Shown in pieces: positions 4,623 through 23,291 of a stretch of DNA of 33,609 nucleotides. How positions within the stretch are numbered: the first letter of the stretch is position 1; each line of letters begins with the position of its first letter. The DNA lies in the IMG/VR virus record IMGVR_UViG_3300020185_000153, positions 1 through 33,609 of that record; one strand, 5' to 3'. The stretch comes from a virus. Made by a program: the position numbers and the translations under genes. A model generated the notes under the pieces. That model was not told the DNA's origin. It saw only the letters and a program-made list of their open reading frames with translations, and did not search any database.

Positions 4623-4979
4623 ATGGCAAATACATATACATGGGACTGTAAAACAGTAGACGTATATCCTGATTATGAGGGCAATACAGACACAGTTTAT
4701 AACGTCCATTGGAGATTGAATGGAACAAGTAGTGAAACACACGAAGTAGATGGTCAAGAAGTACCATACACAGCTAGTGTTTATGGCACTCAATCCTTAT
4801 CACTTGATGATATTGGTTCAGACTTTGTACCTTTCGCTGATCTAACTAATACAATAGTAGAAGGTTGGGTCAAAAGCATTATGGGTGATGAAGAAGTGGC
4901 TAACTTGAAAAAATCTTTAAAAGATAAAATAGACGAAGAAATAACACCTACGACTGAAACAAAAACTATAGGCGAATAA
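4623..4979 (+). CDS. Conserved fibre-adjacent phage protein (DUF7936-like)
   Basis: This 118-residue protein starts with MANTYTWDCKTVDVYP, followed by VYNVHWRLNG, VYGTQSLSL and FVPFADLTNTIVEGWV. I recognise this pattern as a widespread phage protein of unknown function, usually found next to tail-fibre genes; my recollection is that it is catalogued as DUF7936. It has no signal peptide or membrane segment. The C-terminal third is charged and helical and ends in a TPTTETKTIGE tail. The start is supported by AGGAG eleven bases after the fibre stop. Position suggests a structural or fibre-assembly accessory role, which is inference. Confidence 0.8.
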   Translation: MANTYTWDCKTVDVYPDYEGNTDTVYNVHWRLNGTSSETHEVDGQEVPYTASVYGTQSLSLDDIGSDFVPFADLTNTIVEGWVKSIMGDEEVANLKKSLKDKIDEEITPTTETKTIGE

Positions 4980-5005
4980 TTGTTATTACAATTATAAATA
5001 CACTA

Positions 5006-5033
5006 TGGTCATAGGCTCAAATTTATATATAAT
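5006..5033 (+). promoter_or_regulatory. Candidate sigma70-type promoter before the lysis genes
   Basis: TGGTCA (5006-5011) and a perfect TATAAT (5028-5033) are separated by 16 bases in the 90-base gap between 4979 and 5070. This is the only gap of this size between the fibre and the lysis genes. AT-rich DNA yields such matches by chance, so it is only a candidate. Confidence 0.4.
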
Positions 5034-5069
5034 AAAATTAACTAACTTAAAAACATATAGGAGAGATAT

Positions 5070-5321
5070 ATGAGTAAAGAGAATGAAGTAAAAAATGATG
5101 TAATCATCAACTTTAATGGCAGAGACTTTAAAGCAGAAGATTTAAACGAAGATCAAGCAAATATAGCTGCTAAATTAAACGTAGCACAAAGAAAATTGCA
5201 AAGACTTCAAGATGCTTATGAGGACTATGTTATTACTGCTGAATACAGAGAGATGCAAGTAAAAGCATTTTCTGAAACTGTAGAAGAAGAAGCAGAGGTT
5301 GAGGAAGTAACAGAGGAATAA
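5070..5321 (+). CDS. Small acidic coiled-coil phage protein, function unknown
   Basis: This 83-residue protein begins MSKENEVKNDVIINFNGRDF, then has a predicted helix (about residues 25-55, ANIAAKLNVAQRKLQRLQ) with heptad-like leucines. A very acidic tail (ETVEEEAEVEEVTEE) ends it. The NFNGRDFKAEDL opening resembles small proteins found near tail and lysis genes of marine phages, possibly the DUF6447 group, but I am not certain. AGGAGAG stands seven bases before the ATG, so the start is good. It sits two bases upstream of the next gene, in an apparent lysis operon. No enzymatic motif is visible. Confidence 0.75.
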   Translation: MSKENEVKNDVIINFNGRDFKAEDLNEDQANIAAKLNVAQRKLQRLQDAYEDYVITAEYREMQVKAFSETVEEEAEVEEVTEE

Positions 5322-5323
5322 TA

Positions 5324-5524
5324 ATGGCTGAACGTAAGACAATCGCATCAGTAGCATCTGACTTAGAAAAGCATGATGCGATTTGCCAAGAACGCTGGAA
5401 AACTATCTATCGCAAAACAGATGATTTGCAAAGCTCAGTCAATAGCACTAAGGCTTGGCTAGTTGGTGGTCTTACTACAATAGTGGTTGCATTATTTACC
5501 TTAATAGTAAAAGGCCTATTTTGA
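5324..5524 (+). CDS. XhlA-like small membrane protein, putative holin partner
   Basis: This 66-residue protein has a charged helical N-terminus (residues 1-43, with RWKTIYRKTDDLQSSVNSTK) and one C-terminal membrane segment (about residues 45-65, WLVGGLTTIVVALFTLIVKG). That layout matches the XhlA/haemolysin-type family of small phage lysis proteins: soluble coiled coil followed by a single transmembrane helix. It overlaps the next gene, a 3TM holin, so the two are probably translated together. Possible roles are holin, antiholin or membrane anchor. The family assignment rests on architecture and context, not on a diagnostic motif. Confidence 0.7.
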   Translation: MAERKTIASVASDLEKHDAICQERWKTIYRKTDDLQSSVNSTKAWLVGGLTTIVVALFTLIVKGLF

Positions 5525-5913
5525 GCATTACCAAAATTGCTGAAGTAGCAAACAACGTCTTGGATAAGTTTGTTCAGGATAAAGATTTAAAAGAACAATT
5601 ATCACATGACTTACAAAAAGAACTTATATCGCTTGATAAAGCACAAATTAGCCTTAATGCTGAAGAAGCGAAGAACGGGAACTGGTTTGTATCGTCATGG
5701 AGACCCTGCATTGGATATGTTTGTGGGTTTAGTCTTTGCACTCATTACATTATCTTGCCTATTGCAACTTGGATAGCTGTAGTCAATGGAGCAGATTTAA
5801 AACTTGAAGCTCTTGAGTTTGATTTTTCACAACTTACAACAATACTTCTATCGTTATTGGGCATGTCATCATTGCGTACAGCAGAGAAGTTCAAAGGAGT
5901 TCATAGCAAATAA
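5521..5913 (+). CDS. 3TM holin (gene-transfer-agent holin family)
   Basis: This 130-residue protein has a helical N-terminus, NWFVSSWRPCIGYVCGF at about residues 55-71 followed by a membrane helix, a second hydrophobic stretch near residues 105-118 (LTTILLSLLGM), and the closing LRTAEKFKG. The SWRP and LLG...RT.EK signatures are those of the holin family first described for alphaproteobacterial gene-transfer agents. It would form inner-membrane holes that let the lysozyme out. I chose the TTG at 5521, which overlaps the upstream TGA. The frame is open further upstream, but that stretch lies inside the preceding gene and looks unlike the family. Confidence 0.85.
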   Translation: MSITKIAEVANNVLDKFVQDKDLKEQLSHDLQKELISLDKAQISLNAEEAKNGNWFVSSWRPCIGYVCGFSLCTHYIILPIATWIAVVNGADLKLEALEFDFSQLTTILLSLLGMSSLRTAEKFKGVHSK

Positions 5914-5914
5914 T

Positions 5915-6364
5915 ATGTACGATAAAGTAAAAGAAATGCTTATAAGGCATGAGGGTGTTATGTGTACCTTGTATGACGATACAGCAGAGCCACCTAGAAA
6001 AACTATTGGCGTGGGTAGAAATCTTACTGACAGAGGTATCACAGAAGATGAAGCTATGTATATGCTTGATAACGATATAAAAAGAGTTATGAATCAATTA
6101 GATGAATACTGGACTGTTTGGCGTAGCTTTCCTGAAAGGGGGCAAATGGTTTGTCTTGATATGTGCTTTCAAATGGGAATACAGGGATTCATGGGCTTTA
6201 GAAGGACAAGAGCCTTAATGGAAATGGGTATGTGGTTAGAAGCATCAGAAGAATTGTTAGACAGCAAATATGCTATACAAACTGCAAATAGGGCAAATTA
6301 CAATTCAAGACAACTTGCACTATGTGGCAAAGATGGCAAAGACATCGGAAGATCATCAAGGTAA
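5915..6364 (+). CDS. GH24 lysozyme (T4-type endolysin)
   Basis: This 149-residue protein has the T4 lysozyme active-site pattern: Glu13 in RHEG, Asp22 in YDDT nine residues later, and Thr30 in KTIGVG. The ITEDEAMYMLDNDI helix and the CFQMGIQGFMGF segment follow in family order. It cuts the N-acetylmuramic acid to N-acetylglucosamine bond of peptidoglycan at the end of infection. No signal peptide is visible, so release should depend on the adjacent holin. The ATG at 5915 follows the holin stop by one base. AAGGAG lies about 15 bases upstream, which is rather far. The length is normal for the family. Confidence 0.93.
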   Translation: MYDKVKEMLIRHEGVMCTLYDDTAEPPRKTIGVGRNLTDRGITEDEAMYMLDNDIKRVMNQLDEYWTVWRSFPERGQMVCLDMCFQMGIQGFMGFRRTRALMEMGMWLEASEELLDSKYAIQTANRANYNSRQLALCGKDGKDIGRSSR

Positions 6365-6776
6365 TTCAAGACTTGGTGCTTTGGGTGAATCCTTAGTACA
6401 AACATTCCTATTGGAATATGCAGACTTTGTGTATCCAACCCAAGACAAACATCCTGCGGATATATTACTTGAGACAAATGGCAGAAAATATACAGTGCAA
6501 GTTAAAACAAGAAGAGAGTCTAAACAAGGCAAATATACTTTTGCATCAGAAACATCAAGGCAAATGTCAGAGCTTTATAAGAATTACCATTGTGATATTC
6601 TTGCTTTTGTTTTCTTTAGCCAAGAACATAAGCGAATTATCTTCAAGCCAAATACTACTTCGCAAACCTACTTTACCTTTGATAAAAAGATAATAACCCC
6701 AACCCTAGAAATAGATTCCTTACAAGAAACCTTAGATGCACTTAGCCAAGTGCCAGTATTAAATCCTTTAAAATAA
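6333..6776 (+). CDS. PD-(D/E)XK nuclease-like protein (I-Ssp6803I-type fold)
   Basis: This 147-residue protein has RLGALGESLV (helix with conserved Glu), then HPADILLE with the metal-binding Asp, then YTVQVKTR, the (E/Q)xK half with Gln in place of Glu. This order and the QVK variant are typical of the PD-(D/E)XK family that includes the homing endonuclease I-Ssp6803I. The frame is open upstream, but I chose the ATG at 6333 (MAKTSEDHQG). It overlaps the lysozyme gene by 32 bases, and earlier starts would add only lysozyme-overlapping sequence. No intron is visible. It could be a free-standing homing endonuclease or a host-DNA nuclease. Target unknown. Confidence 0.75.
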   Translation: MAKTSEDHQGNSRLGALGESLVQTFLLEYADFVYPTQDKHPADILLETNGRKYTVQVKTRRESKQGKYTFASETSRQMSELYKNYHCDILAFVFFSQEHKRIIFKPNTTSQTYFTFDKKIITPTLEIDSLQETLDALSQVPVLNPLK

Positions 6777-6788
6777 TTTAATTATTTT
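6770..6788 (+). repeat. AT-only palindrome at the end of the nuclease gene
   Basis: AAAATAATT and AATTATTTT form perfect 9-base arms around one T, overlapping the stop codon at 6774-6776. It could be a weak terminator or a protein-binding site. Chance is plausible in DNA this AT-rich. Confidence 0.45.
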
Positions 6789-6799
6789 CTATATTTATA

Positions 6800-6827
6800 T
6801 ATACATTTGCATTTATGTATGTAAAAT
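6800..6827 (+). promoter_or_regulatory. Candidate early promoter with overlapping dyad
   Basis: TATACA (6800-6805) and TAAAAT (6822-6827) are 16 bases apart. The inverted repeat ATACAT/ATGTAT (6801-6806 and 6815-6820) lies between and over them, as an operator would. The site is in the 81-base gap before the cluster of small early genes starting at 6858, the largest gap in this part. It is a pattern match only. Confidence 0.38.
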
Positions 6828-6857
6828 AGGGGTATGTTAAACAATAAGGAGTCAAAC

Positions 6858-7052
6858 ATGAACACATTAGAAACACTAGAAAACTTAAAAAAAGAAAGAA
6901 CACATTGGTTAAAGGCATATAACAATATGGTAGGTTTTGCCAGTGAAACACCATCAGAGACCTTAGCTAGGAGGGCGATGTACCAAAAAAACTATAAGTT
7001 ATATAACAAGCGAATAAAGAAAATCCAAAGACAACAAAGAAAGGGGGTCTAA
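6858..7052 (+). CDS. Small basic helical protein, unknown
   Basis: This 64-residue protein begins MNTLETLENLKKERTHWLKA and ends KKIQRQQRKGV. It is strongly basic at the C-terminus and predicted to be mostly helical. The ATG at 6858 is preceded by AAGGAG at the ideal distance of six bases, so I prefer it over the ATG at 6834. The stop overlaps the start of the next gene. It is the first gene of a run of four small overlapping genes that probably share one transcript. I do not recognise the family. A nucleic-acid-binding role is a guess from charge. Confidence 0.7.
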   Translation: MNTLETLENLKKERTHWLKAYNNMVGFASETPSETLARRAMYQKNYKLYNKRIKKIQRQQRKGV

Positions 7053-18602: not shown

Positions 18603-19229
18603 TTGAGCAATCAATTTGACAGAGATAATTACCCAGTCCAAGAGCCTGATCGTTTGGTTACAGGAGACAGATTTGCATGGCAAAGACCTGATCTTGTAAC
18701 AGACTATCCTTTGGCTGACTACACTATGACTTATCACTTCTCTCAAGACAGTGGCGGTGGTGGTACACATCACTTTACACTATCTTCAACTGAAGCTAAT
18801 GATAATTATTACTTTGAAAAACCATCATCCGAGACTACCAACTTAACTGCTGGTGACTGGGAATGGCAATTATATGCAATAAGAACATCTGATAGCGAAA
18901 GGGTAACGCTTGATTACGGAATAACTAAGTTTGCTATTGGTGAATTAGACACAAATAACGATTTAAGAAGTCATGCGAAGAAAGTTTTAGATGCTATTGA
19001 AGCTGTAATAGAAGGAAGGGCTACAATAGACCAATCATCCTTCTCTTTAGGTGGAAGATCATTATCTAGGCTATCTGTTGATGAATTAATGACATTTAGA
19101 GATAGATATCATGCTGAATACCTAAAAGAAGTTAAATTAGCAAGAATTAGAAACAAACAAGGGTCAGGAAACACTATCAAGGTCAATTTTGGTGGTTCTA
19201 CTGGTTCTACACCTAAGAGTTACACATAA
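18603..19229 (+). CDS. Head-tail connector with N-terminal beta domain and gpW-like C-terminus
   Basis: This 208-residue protein has two parts. Residues 1-118 are beta-rich (YTMTYHFSQ, HHFTLSST, LTAGDWEWQLYAIRTSD, VTLDYGITKFAIGEL). Residues 122-208 carry KKVLDAIEAVIEGRATIDQS, LGGRSLSRLSVDELMTFRDR and a closing NTIKVNFGG, which fit the lambda gpW/connector type. gpW closes the filled head and receives gpFII. Placement between terminase and portal is the lambda order A-W-B. The start is TTG with GAGG seven bases upstream; a TGA at 18591 in frame excludes earlier starts. The two parts are sometimes separate genes in other phages, as I recall. Confidence 0.75.
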   Translation: MSNQFDRDNYPVQEPDRLVTGDRFAWQRPDLVTDYPLADYTMTYHFSQDSGGGGTHHFTLSSTEANDNYYFEKPSSETTNLTAGDWEWQLYAIRTSDSERVTLDYGITKFAIGELDTNNDLRSHAKKVLDAIEAVIEGRATIDQSSFSLGGRSLSRLSVDELMTFRDRYHAEYLKEVKLARIRNKQGSGNTIKVNFGGSTGSTPKSYT

Positions 19230-20722
19230 TGGCATGGTATAACAGAATACTAGGCGTTAATGAGCCTAAAAAGAAAAAGAAACAGGCTTATAGAAGAAGT
19301 TATACTGGTGCTAATACTGGTAGATTGTTTGCAGACTTTGTAACAAGCTCTACAAGTGCCGATGCTGAAATAAAAGATAACATAAGAATACTCAGAGATA
19401 GAGCAAGAGAGTTAGCAAGGAACGATAGCTACATTGCACGATACCTTAACCTGATGGTATCTAATGTTATCGGTAAGCATGGCATAAGAGTTAGTAGTAA
19501 AAGTCGAAATGACAATGGTTCATTAGACCTTGCTGCTAACCAGCTCATTGAGTCAGCTTGGAAGGATTGGTCAAAAGTAGGCAATTGTACTACCAATGGA
19601 AGATTATCATTTTTAGATTGTCAAAAAATATTTATTGAATCTTTGGCTAGAGATGGTGAAGTCTTAATTAGAAAAATAAAAGATAACAATTCACCTTTTG
19701 GTTTTCAAATCCAGTTCTTAGAAGCAGATCATTTAGATGAAACTAAGAATGATATTTACAAACAAACTGGTAATAGAGTTAAGATGGGTGTTGAGGTTGA
19801 TAAGTACGACAAACCAGTTGCTTATCATCTTTACAAGAACCATCCTTACGATAGAACTTATATAGCTCAAAACGAACACATTAGAGTTCCAGCAGATGAA
19901 ATTATCCATGCTTACCTACCTACTAGGGCAGAACAAACTAGAGGTGTTTCTTTGGTTGCTACATCAATGGCTAATGTGAAAATGTTAAATGGTTATTTAG
20001 AAGCAGAAATAGTTGCAGCTAGAGTTGGTGCATCTAAAATGGGATTCTTTACCTCACCCGATGGTGATGGATATGTTGGTGATGGTGAATACGAAGATAC
20101 CTTTAATCCAACAATGAACGCACAGGCTGGGGTCTTTGAGCAACTTCCACAAGGTATGGACTTTAAGGCTTTTGACCCAACACACCCAACATCTGCTTTT
20201 GATTCTTTTACAACCAGTGTTTTAAGAAGTATTGCATCAGGTTTGAATATTTCTTATCACTCATTATCTAATGATCTAACTTCAGTTAATTACTCTAGTA
20301 TCAGGCAAGGAGCTTTAGAAGACAGAAGTATGTATCAGATATATCAACAATTTGTTATTGAGCATTTTGTAAATCCAGTATTTCAATCTTGGTTAGAGAT
20401 GTCTATATCTACAGGTCGTATCAATCTACCAATAGGTAAGTTTGATAAATTCTCTAACTCAGTAAACTTCATACCAAGAAGTTTTGCTTGGATTGACCCT
20501 TTAAAAGAAATGCAATCAAACGTACTAGGTTTGCAAAATGGAACAATAAGCTATTCAGATATAGCTGCTGCTTATGGTAGAGATACTGAAGAACTATTTG
20601 AACAACATCAAAAAGAGATTGAACTAGCTAAACAATATGGTATTGAACTAGCCTATCAACCATTTGGTGCTAAATTGCCAGTAGAAGCTAACATACAGGG
20701 CGGAGATCAGGAAGATGAGTAA
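19229..20722 (+). CDS. Portal protein (lambda gpB family)
   Basis: This 497-residue protein matches the lambda gpB portal family: ILRDRARELARNDSYIARYL near residue 50, FIESLARDGEVLIRKIKD, FQIQFLEADHLDE, GVEVDKYDKPVAYHLYKNHP, ADEIIHAYLPTRAEQTRGVS, and then GLNISYHSLSNDLTSVNYSS. It would form the dodecameric ring at one head vertex, acting as motor platform and DNA gate. The N-terminus is very basic (PKKKKKQAYRR). It starts one base inside the previous stop (TAATG) and overlaps the next gene by eight bases. Length is normal for the family. Confidence 0.94.
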   Translation: MAWYNRILGVNEPKKKKKQAYRRSYTGANTGRLFADFVTSSTSADAEIKDNIRILRDRARELARNDSYIARYLNLMVSNVIGKHGIRVSSKSRNDNGSLDLAANQLIESAWKDWSKVGNCTTNGRLSFLDCQKIFIESLARDGEVLIRKIKDNNSPFGFQIQFLEADHLDETKNDIYKQTGNRVKMGVEVDKYDKPVAYHLYKNHPYDRTYIAQNEHIRVPADEIIHAYLPTRAEQTRGVSLVATSMANVKMLNGYLEAEIVAARVGASKMGFFTSPDGDGYVGDGEYEDTFNPTMNAQAGVFEQLPQGMDFKAFDPTHPTSAFDSFTTSVLRSIASGLNISYHSLSNDLTSVNYSSIRQGALEDRSMYQIYQQFVIEHFVNPVFQSWLEMSISTGRINLPIGKFDKFSNSVNFIPRSFAWIDPLKEMQSNVLGLQNGTISYSDIAAAYGRDTEELFEQHQKEIELAKQYGIELAYQPFGAKLPVEANIQGGDQEDE

Positions 20723-23027
20723 TCCTAATCAGGGTATGAAAGAAGAAGCTCAGAAAGGTTTAGATTGGCGTGAAGAGCATGGTAGAGGTGGTACTAGGGT
20801 CGGTGCTGTAAGGGCAAGGCAAATAGTAGCTGGTGAAAACTTGTCTGACGATACTATAAAAAGAATGTATAGCTTTTTTAGTAGACATGAAGTGGATAAA
20901 CAAGCTGAAGGATTTAAACAAGGTGAAGAAGGATATCCTTCAAATGGAAGAATAGCATGGGCATTATGGGGTGGAGATGCTGGATTTAGTTGGTCAAAAA
21001 GACTGGTTAATCAAATGAAAAATGAAAAAAGTTTTGACTTGAAAGAGTTGGAAAAACATCCTTTATTAACAAATGAAGAGGAGAAATCTATGAATAAAGA
21101 AGATAGACACATCCTTAATGTTACTGAAACTGACAATACTGTTATTGTTGAGTTTGAGAAGCATGAGGATGTAGAACATGAAGGTGAAGAATTAGAAGCG
21201 ACTGATGAAGTCTCTATGGATGAATCAAGTGAAGAAGAAAGGAAAGTAATTGATATGCCTATGAAATTTAGGACTATTGATCTATCCAAACATTCTTACC
21301 TTGATGAAGAAAAGAGAATAGTTCGAATAGGCGTTTCTAGTGAAGAACCTGTAGAACGTAGTTTTGGCATGGAAGTGCTAGGACATTCTGCTGAAGATAT
21401 AAACATGGAGTTTATTTCATCAGGCAGAGCACCATTATTACTTGACCATGATATGGAAAAGCAAATTGGTGTGATTGAAGAATTCAAATTAGATGAGACT
21501 GCAAAGAGGACAACTGCGGTAGTTAGATTTGGTAAATCTGCTTTAGCTCGTGAAGTATTTGAAGATGTAGCTGATGGTATACGAATGAACATTTCAGTTG
21601 GTTACAGAGTCGATAAATTAACAAGAATGAACAAAGACGATGAGACTTACTACAAAGCTCAATGGACACCTATGGAAGTTTCTTCTGTATCTGTTCCTGC
21701 TGACCAGTCAAGACTTGTTGGGGTTGGTCGTTCTAAAGATAAACAAACTATTAATAATATAGAGGTAATAACAATGGAAAATAAAGATATTAATCTTGAA
21801 GAAGTTAGAACTCAGACTATTGATGAAGCTAAAGCTGAATTTAAAAGAAACTCAAAAGAGATCATAGATTTAGCAGCTAGACACAATAAAAGAGATTTGG
21901 CTGACAAAGCAATTAGTGATGGTATATCTGTTGAAGAATTTAGAGGTGTATTGCTAGAAAATATTTCTAACAACACTCCGCTAGAAACTCCTTCAGACAT
22001 CGGTATGAGCAAAGAAGAAGTAAGAGAATTTAGCCTAGTAAAAGCGATTAGAGCTATGGCTAACCCATCTGACAGAAAGGCACAGGAAGATGCAGCTTTT
22101 GAATTTGAATGTTCAAGAGAAGCAGCTAGACAATATGGTAAAGATGCTCAAGGCATTATGTTACCTGCTGAAGTTCTAAGAACTTGGAACAAAAGAGACA
22201 TCAACACTGGTGATGATTCAACTTTAATAGCTGAAGATTACAGAGGTGGCGATTTTATTGATGTGCTAAGAAATTCATCATCAGTTTTAGCTGCTGGTGC
22301 AACAACATTGCAAGGACTGCAAGGTAACGTAGTAATTCCTAAGAAAACTGCTGCTTCATCTGCTGGATGGATTGCAACAGAAGGTAATGCTGCTTCTGAA
22401 TCAGAATTTACTTCAGGTTCAGTAACAATGACACCTAAGGTAGTTGGTGCTTTCACAGATGCTACAAGACTATTATTACAACAGTCTTCACTAGACATCG
22501 AAAACCTAATCAGAGATGACCTAACAAAATCTATAGCTACTGCTATTGATTTAGGTGCTTTAGCTGGTTCAGGTTCAAGTGGTCAACCAACAGGTATTAA
22601 AAATACTTCAGGTATTAACACTACTACTTTTGCTGCTGCTAACCCAACATTTGCTGAAATTATTGCAATGGAAAGCGAAGTTGCTAATGACAATGGCTTA
22701 GTAGGTAACTTAGGTTATATCTGTAAACCTTCAGACTATGGCACACTAAAAACTACTTCTAAAGATACTGGAAGTGGTCAATTTGTAGTTGAGCCTGATG
22801 GAAACATGAATGGCTACAATGTTGTAAGAAGTAACCAAGTAACAGCAGGAGATTTCTTCTTTGGAAACTTTGCTGACTTACTAGTTGGTTTTTATGGCGG
22901 TTTAGACATTACTGTAGACCCTTATTCACTTTCTAATACAGGAAGCATAAGAATAGTTGCTTTACAAACTATGGACGTAGCAGTTAGACATGCAGTTTCA
23001 TTCTGTGTATCTAATGACGGTGCATAA
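20715..23027 (+). CDS. Fused N-terminal phage domain, HK97-type prohead protease and major capsid protein
   Basis: One 770-residue frame holds three parts. Residues 1-100 are a phage domain of unknown function (LDWREEHGRGGTRVGAVRAR, YSFFSRHEVD, PSNGRIAWALWGGDAGFSW). Residues 170-345 are an HK97/U35-type protease with LLLDHDMEKQIG (His) and IRMNISVGY (Ser), closing in MEVSSVSVPADQS. Residues 355-770 are an HK97-fold capsid: a helical scaffold-like delta region, then GGDFIDVLRNSSSVLAAGAT, DLGALAGSG and the C-terminal VAVRHAVSF. Protease cleavage would release mature capsid. Strong internal ribosome-binding sites stand before in-frame ATGs at 21090 and 21774, at the two domain borders, so shorter products are likely. 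Confidence 0.9.
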   Translation: MSNPNQGMKEEAQKGLDWREEHGRGGTRVGAVRARQIVAGENLSDDTIKRMYSFFSRHEVDKQAEGFKQGEEGYPSNGRIAWALWGGDAGFSWSKRLVNQMKNEKSFDLKELEKHPLLTNEEEKSMNKEDRHILNVTETDNTVIVEFEKHEDVEHEGEELEATDEVSMDESSEEERKVIDMPMKFRTIDLSKHSYLDEEKRIVRIGVSSEEPVERSFGMEVLGHSAEDINMEFISSGRAPLLLDHDMEKQIGVIEEFKLDETAKRTTAVVRFGKSALAREVFEDVADGIRMNISVGYRVDKLTRMNKDDETYYKAQWTPMEVSSVSVPADQSRLVGVGRSKDKQTINNIEVITMENKDINLEEVRTQTIDEAKAEFKRNSKEIIDLAARHNKRDLADKAISDGISVEEFRGVLLENISNNTPLETPSDIGMSKEEVREFSLVKAIRAMANPSDRKAQEDAAFEFECSREAARQYGKDAQGIMLPAEVLRTWNKRDINTGDDSTLIAEDYRGGDFIDVLRNSSSVLAAGATTLQGLQGNVVIPKKTAASSAGWIATEGNAASESEFTSGSVTMTPKVVGAFTDATRLLLQQSSLDIENLIRDDLTKSIATAIDLGALAGSGSSGQPTGIKNTSGINTTTFAAANPTFAEIIAMESEVANDNGLVGNLGYICKPSDYGTLKTTSKDTGSGQFVVEPDGNMNGYNVVRSNQVTAGDFFFGNFADLLVGFYGGLDITVDPYSLSNTGSIRIVALQTMDVAVRHAVSFCVSNDGA
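21075..21092 (+). promoter_or_regulatory. Internal ribosome-binding site and ATG at the protease domain border
   Basis: GAAGAGGAG lies six bases before an in-frame ATG at 21090 (MNKEDRHILN). This start removes the N-terminal domain and would give a protease-capsid product of 645 residues. Confidence 0.55.
21761..21776 (+). promoter_or_regulatory. Internal ribosome-binding site and ATG at the capsid domain border
   Basis: AGAGG lies eight bases before an in-frame ATG at 21774 (MENKDINLEE), just after the protease ends and where HK97-type capsid delta regions begin. It would give a separate capsid precursor of 417 residues. Confidence 0.6.
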
Positions 23028-23047
23028 TAGTTAATGCTTAAATGGAA

Positions 23048-23067
23048 TGGGGGTAGCAATACCCCCA
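23048..23067 (+). other. Perfect 8-bp hairpin with GCAA tetraloop after the capsid gene
   Basis: The arms are TGGGGGTA and TACCCCCA around GCAA, a GNRA tetraloop. It starts 21 bases after the capsid stop and has no T-tract. The RNA stem is very stable compared with the surrounding AT-rich sequence. It may be an mRNA 3'-end stabiliser or an attenuator between the highly expressed capsid gene and downstream genes. Confidence 0.75.
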
Positions 23068-23075
23068 ACTTAAAT

Positions 23076-23291
23076 ATGAAGAAATACTTAATAACAAAAA
23101 ATACAGTTGCCAATGGGCAAAGAGTAAATGCAGGTGATGTTGTTGAATTACCTGAAAACATAGGGCATGAACTTTGTGCTTACAATAAAGCAGAAGTGCA
23201 TGTAGCTAAACCTAAAGCCAAAAAAGAAGACAGAAGCGTAGGCTTAAAAACTTCTAAAGTAAAAGCTCCTAAAACTAGAGCTAAAAAATAA
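23076..23291 (+). CDS. Small head-tail region protein, basic tail (71 aa)
   Basis: This 71-residue protein begins MKKYLITKNTVANGQRVNAG, then DVVELPENIGHELCAYNKAE, and ends in a lysine-rich tail (KAPKTRAKK). The K-tvA-G-xV-aGDvveLp pattern is a common small phage protein between capsid and head-tail joining genes, with a compact beta fold and flexible basic tail. Its precise role is unknown, possibly a capsid or connector accessory. The frame is open back to an ATG at 23034, but that would translate through the GCAA hairpin. I chose the ATG at 23076, which starts where the family starts. Confidence 0.7.
   Translation: MKKYLITKNTVANGQRVNAGDVVELPENIGHELCAYNKAEVHVAKPKAKKEDRSVGLKTSKVKAPKTRAKK

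Follow-up and report, generated by a model that had tools for sequence, protein, structure and literature searches.

Conserved internal start signals in a phage protease-capsid fusion gene suggest nested head proteins

Introduction

When a prohead protease and a capsid protein are joined in one frame, is a single long chain the only product, or are shorter proteins also made from starts within the gene? We examined this question in a marine phage DNA of 33,609 nucleotides (IMG/VR record IMGVR_UViG_3300020185_000153, positions 1 to 33,609; hereafter, the window), in which an open reading frame (ORF) at 20715-23027 on the plus strand encodes an N-terminal domain (N-domain), a prohead protease, and a scaffold-like delta part continuous with the capsid protein. 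A preliminary description of this ORF had pointed to a Shine-Dalgarno (SD) sequence and an ATG at each of the two domain borders and had left two readings side by side: signals left over from the fusion of separate genes, or three nested products. The comparative evidence presented here favors the nested products and disfavors the relics. We estimate at roughly three in four (about 0.76) the probability that we are dealing with a fused head-maturation gene in which two internal translation starts are functional. On the evidence of the sequences compared, the plain capsid (delta plus capsid) is very probably also made from its own start, and protease-capsid is probably made likewise.

Domain borders and internal start signals

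The ORF is open over 770 codons, with a predicted product of 84.8 kDa. The fusion protein matched the protease-capsid fusion family phrog_617 as one chain over residues 184-768 (E 2.9e-143) and the phrog_2859 profile over residues 4-115. The capsid part passed the curated models TIGR01554 (94.7 bits; cut-off, 27.5) and PF05065 (133.3 bits; cut-off, 24.2), and a Foldseek comparison matched its predicted HK97 fold to the R4C capsid structure 8GTA (E 1.3e-19) and to the HK97 Prohead I and II chains. The protease part was related to TIGR01543 (E 2.7e-07) at 30.8 bits, under the cut-off of 59; residues H224, H245, and S294 were invariant across 52 sequences, consistent with a predicted Ser-His protease. 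Against the NCBI fusion model NF045541 (scaf_prot_MCP2) the protein scored 137.5 bits and did not reach the curated cut-off of 525 bits.

An AlphaFold model built with 40 sequences showed folded domains parted by stretches of low confidence (predicted local distance difference test below 50), mainly at residues 107-132, 148-184, 331-358, and 494-512. M126 and M354, which are encoded by the internal ATGs at 21090 and 21774, fall in the stretches 107-132 and 331-358, respectively. Because separate family models match on either side and the low-confidence stretches lie mainly at the linkers, we regard the domain borders as real. The preliminary description was accurate on these points: the frame has no stop, the coordinates of both pairs of SD and ATG were exact on re-check, and the start signals do lie at domain borders.

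As a measure of SD strength, we took the energy with which the 16S tail pairs with the 16 nt from -19 to -4. Among the 22 in-frame ATGs of the ORF, the lowest energies belonged to 21090 (-9.1) and 21774 (-7.2), and the annotated start came third (-6.6); by simple arithmetic, a random ranking of the 21 internal ATGs would put these border sites in the top two places with a probability of 1/210. The AGGAG in GAAGAGGAG is spaced 6 nt from ATG 21090, and the GAGGT at AGAGG 21761-21765 is spaced 7 nt from ATG 21774. An energy of -7.2 was reached by 5.4% of the 846 plus-strand ATGs in the window and -9.1 by 1.5%. The median was -2.1 for all plus-strand ATGs and -6.0 for ordinary gene starts, so both internal sites are at least as strong as the normal starts of this phage. 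Accessibility, in the sense of low structure, was also higher at the internal starts than at other ATGs.

The protease/capsid border in relatives

We collected a viral set of 354 loci from five viral scans and phage records, and a genomic set of 80 further fused loci from a bacterial genome scan, which was scored by the rule of the viral set. Clustering, at 80% identity for the viral set, gave 60 viral and 71 genomic representatives, and clades were assigned by the best named reference. The controls were the other in-frame ATGs of the same genes, a protein-preserving synonymous recoding of the eight upstream codons (the synonymous null), and a clade-by-clade analysis.

The preliminary description had suggested looking for relatives in which the genes are split at the borders. 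Split protease and capsid genes were found in 0 of the 434 scored relatives; all had one frame. Three apparent splits were set aside and not used as evidence: in L034, a TAA at 1344-1346 lies 7 codons after the first internal ATG of an otherwise intact relative; L044 carries a frameshift upstream; and CRP-823 (L086:3989-4705 + 4665-6917) is frameshifted relative to CRP-821 by a single T in a run of Ts that lies in the N-terminal modules, which may be a real change or a sequencing error. The CRP-823 fusion gene is annotated as two capsid genes, and its culture could not be purified.

The linker between protease and delta carried an in-frame ATG in 55 of the 60 viral and 68 of the 71 genomic representatives and was otherwise variable; an ATG was present in just 62% of equally long stretches elsewhere in the genes of the genomic set. 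In the window's clade (n=14), the mean SD energy at this second border was -8.05, compared with -3.77 for the synonymous null and -2.15 for other ATGs (Monte Carlo p=0.0002). The corresponding values were -5.11, -3.95, and -2.18 in the ep3-like clade (p=0.012) and -5.90, -4.28, and -2.59 in the genomic set (Monte Carlo p=0.0002). Close relatives on viral contigs kept both ATGs and both SD sequences while the peptides at these places differed (INNIEVITM, INFKEIIM, LKKGIIM, and TQRSDPM). Among the relatives, the GG core of the SD occurred in all three codon phases, and the spacing from SD to start was 5-11 nt in nearly all. The preliminary description had made its proposal of nested products depend on the conservation of the internal sites in relatives, and both start codons and SD sequences are kept.

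Start-codon swaps

The hardest argument for initiation comes from swaps of the start codon. At the site just before the delta helix, the 28 representatives of the cyanophage-like clade with a recognisable delta start had ATG (21) or GTG (7) and nothing else, and all 17 Val codons located at this site among all loci of the clade were GTG, which makes up 42% of the Val codons in these genes; owing to shared ancestry, the counts are not independent of one another. The ep3 clade has a single representative that lacks a linker ATG, L341, and there a well-spaced AGGAGG precedes a GTG. L153 and L147 carry a strong SD (GAAAGAGGTG...) followed by GTG at the first border. A peptide constraint or a pausing signal is disfavored, since neither would keep an initiator codon while the residue changes. 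It could be argued that the SD-like stretches, both of which lie at domain borders, slow elongation between domains to aid folding and have no part in initiation. Such a role would leave unexplained the ATG or GTG that follows at a suitable distance (nearly always 5-11 nt), as well as the start codon kept in the cyanophage-like clade though the SD is gone, and we give it hardly any credence.

Since the ATG is kept, the SD exceeds the peptide constraint, the Val codons are GTG, and GTG follows a strong SD at the first border, the internal signals look maintained rather than relics. If they were relics, the starts of old, fused genes would have been kept by inertia, and only a full-length polyprotein would be made and cut by its own protease. 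The fusion does look old (0/434 relatives split), in other clades the gene begins with the protease, and self-cleavage alone could yield the mature capsid as in R4C. Inertia, however, does not account for a start codon and SD that persist across clades in linkers that otherwise turn over completely, for ATG swapping to GTG and not to other codons, or for SD energies above the synonymous null in two data sets, and a procapsid of full-length chains alone would be close to over-packed (see below). We therefore judge relic signals improbable.

Several points weigh against working internal starts. At the second border, the rhodo clade (n=6) showed no excess SD and the cyanophage-like clade no SD, and 3 of the 71 genomic representatives had neither a linker ATG nor a convincing GTG or TTG start. 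Codon conservation in close relatives was not raised there, probably because the linker is rebuilt and the SD shifts codon phase. Linker composition accounts for most of the low structure around the start in the linker. Cluster representatives are kin, and the p-values ignore phylogeny; the rule for picking sites was set after the viral set had been seen, and the genomic set overlaps the same families.

In the cyanophage-like clade (relatives of S-LBS1 and S-CBS1/3), the internal start of the capsid lies in a C/A-rich leader in which ATG or GTG is kept and no SD is found. This arrangement suggests SD-independent initiation of the capsid in these phages.

The first border and the N-terminal modules

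At the border between the N-terminal part and the protease, the SD energy in the window's clade (n=18) was -7.67, compared with -4.48 for the synonymous null and -2.18 for other ATGs (p=0.0002), and codon conservation among close relatives was raised over residues 112-133. Most other clades (ep3, hapuna, and rhodo) are without the N-domain, and their gene begins near the protease; L078, a member of the window's clade, no longer has the N-domain and retains GAAGAGGA before the ATG. These two observations indicate that 21090 matches an older start of the gene. Most simply, the N-domain and the other modules at that place would have been added in front of an existing gene.

A start at 21774 alone, giving two products, is an explanation that we consider unlikely but worth keeping in view; the SD at 21090 would then be left over from the old start or would simply follow from a linker rich in Glu and Lys. 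The start at the second border is conserved across all clades and the first border was examined in the window's clade alone, and Glu/Lys-rich peptides do give SD-like sequence by chance, as the synonymous null of -4.48 shows. Nevertheless, the SD at the first border exceeds that null (p=0.0002), GTG stands in place of ATG in L153 and L147, and the raised codon conservation covers residues 112-133. Internal promoters, from which protease-capsid and capsid would each be transcribed on a shorter mRNA of its own, would use the conserved starts too. Within 20400-23200, we found no sigma-70-like site on the plus strand and three on the minus strand (8.6 expected in all) in a search that covered sigma-70-like sites only, with phage-specific promoters outside it, and we regard such promoters as very improbable.

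Interchangeable small domains, in several combinations, occupy the N-domain/protease border in L025-L080, L083, and L084; they include a DUF5824-like domain (PF19141), Hva1_TUDOR (PF11160), and an EHAARL...DFIYGI domain. Fold comparison identified the N-domain itself (20724-21026) as a mobile five-helix phage domain that is also joined to portals, prohead proteases, XkdF-like, TUDOR, and other head-region proteins. A PDB fold comparison and a Pfam search returned no fold match, solved structure, or family for it.

Mature capsid, packing, and a proposed mechanism

The R4C capsid consists of 415 copies of a 268-residue capsid protein with T=7 (PMC10276861; structure 8GTA). We found that the R4C fusion ORF has 629 codons, with GGAGG 5 nt ahead of an internal ATG at codon 189. 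In the virion, the capsid protein comprises the C-terminal 268 residues, so that its N-terminus falls by length at residue 362 of 629, which corresponds to approximately residue 501 of the window protein; the low-confidence stretch 494-512 of the AlphaFold model is where maturation cleavage would be expected. Because the capsid protein starts at 362, the protease, linker, and delta part are absent from the modelled mature R4C shell. The mature capsid protein thus begins beyond both internal starts, and the start used cannot be read from the N-termini of virion proteins.

To estimate packing, we took T=7 and 415 copies from R4C (PMC10276861) and assumed an inner radius of 19-22 nm. With full-length chains alone, 415 copies of the 57-kDa removable part would fill approximately 64-99% of an HK97-sized procapsid interior, compared with approximately 19-29% for delta alone. 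Since an all-full-length procapsid would be near over-packed, a mixed shell in which the short form predominates is the more plausible arrangement. A natural parallel for the short form may be seen in the prophage of Haematospirillum sp. H1815 (L437:2411-5369), in which the fused gene is followed by a tandem, stand-alone copy of the capsid gene from 4293 after GGAGG. The SD is stronger at 21090 and the site at 21774 is less structured; because these features point opposite ways, the relative product yields are not readable from the sequence. The suggestion of the preliminary description that much more capsid than protease is made thus finds no answer in the signals themselves.

Under nested expression, initiation at 20715 would yield the complete N-domain-protease-capsid chain, initiation at 21090 the protease-capsid chain, and initiation at 21774 delta plus capsid, the counterpart of HK97 gp5. 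The shorter chains would form the majority of the shell subunits. The longer chains would co-assemble via the common capsid part and bring the protease and N-domain into the procapsid, where cleavage by the protease near residue 501 would strip off delta, the protease itself, and the N-domain, so that a shell protein of approximately 28 kDa remains.

Comparison with known systems

The NF045541/phrog_617 fusions (ep3, VP882, phiHAP-1, and R4C) have the protease and then delta plus capsid in one frame, as in the window, and an ATG or GTG is found in their linkers at the protease/capsid border too; the window differs in its extra N-domain and second internal start. The NCBI model NF045541 describes the fusion only. 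In lambda, the scaffold Nu3 is nested in frame within the protease gene C and is made as a shorter C-terminal product from an internal start. The nested product there is the scaffold, the capsid protein E has a separate gene, and the protease is of a type unlike that of the window, whereas the predicted nested product of the window is delta plus the capsid itself. The principle of C/Nu3, an internal start signal conserved beyond the peptide constraint, appears to hold in the fusion family. In HK97, gp4 (protease) and gp5 (delta plus capsid) are the products of separate genes; the window parts from M126 (228 residues) and M354 (417 residues) resemble them in order and roughly in size, but lie in one frame with retained starts. 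In the Salmonella phage Gifsy-2, the protease, a scaffold-like part, and the capsid reportedly share one gene, and the protease is said to be ClpP-like. The protease of the window is instead of the HK97 type: it matched prohead protease models, and no ClpP/S49 family was among the Pfam matches of the fusion protein.

In the openly licensed literature searched, we found no earlier description of conserved internal starts for protease-capsid fusions; the closest was a title on the tripartite capsid gene of Gifsy-2 (Effantin et al. 2010, pmid 20427067), as cited in PMC8538268. Neither "protease" nor "cleav" occurs in the main text of the R4C paper (PMC10276861), and neither "protease" nor "fusion" occurs in that of the CRP-822 paper (PMC12629253). 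Protease-capsid fusions (NF045541, phrog_617), nested in-frame head genes, and a three-part capsid gene are known already; the conserved internal starts in the fusion family appear to be new here.

Gene layout and possible phage affiliation

The fusion ORF is flanked upstream by a lambda-type portal gene and is followed by small head-region ORFs (Table 1). The relatives of the window's head genes include CRP-811, CRP-406, CRP-821, CRP-822, and CRP-823, and the G+C content of the window is 35.8%, compared with 35.4% for subgroup V of the CRP-822-type marine phages (PMC12629253), a comparison that covers head genes and base composition only. A single-cell genome of SAR86 includes a contig with L367, a close relative at 86% identity, in agreement with the SAR86 host predicted for the low-G+C CRP-822-type phages.

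Table 1. Features of the fusion gene and its upstream neighbor
Feature	Position	Strand	Remarks
Portal gene (lambda-type), upstream neighbor	19229-20722	+	8 nt overlap with fusion start
N-domain/prohead protease/delta+capsid fusion ORF	20715-23027	+	770 aa, 84.8 kDa
N-domain, residues 4-104, all-helical mobile phage domain	20724-21026	+	phrog_2859
Linker 1, residues 107-132, predicted disordered, holds first internal start	21033-21110	+	AlphaFold
SD GAAGAGGAG of first internal start	21075-21083	+	
Candidate internal start ATG 1 (M126)	21090-21092	+	predicted protease-capsid product, 645 aa, 70.5 kDa
Prohead protease part, 228 aa	21090-21773	+	H224, H245, S294 invariant in alignment
Linker 2, residues 331-358, predicted disordered, holds second internal start	21705-21788	+	AlphaFold
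SD AGAGG of second internal start	21761-21765	+	
Candidate internal start ATG 2 (M354)	21774-21776	+	predicted delta+capsid product, 417 aa, 44.5 kDa
Delta (scaffold-like) part, residues 354-500, mostly helical	21774-22214	+	
Predicted mature capsid protein, residues ~501-770, 27.9 kDa	22215-23024	+	start inferred from R4C capsid structure 8GTA

Implications

For the fusion family as a whole, we lean slightly toward the view that the true shell protein is a gene hidden within the annotated "major capsid protein" started at an internal codon, and that the long forms are minor components that bring the protease and interchangeable N-terminal cargo domains into the procapsid. If this holds across the family, whose phage and prophage members come from proteobacteria, cyanobacteria, and others, the start would be wrong in hundreds of capsid annotations, and the start of the capsid protein would be corrected in a large and widespread family. 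The ratio of protease to shell subunits (few versus hundreds) would then be set without splitting the gene, the route of the protease into the procapsid would be explained, and the variable N-terminal domains would be marked as candidate head cargo.

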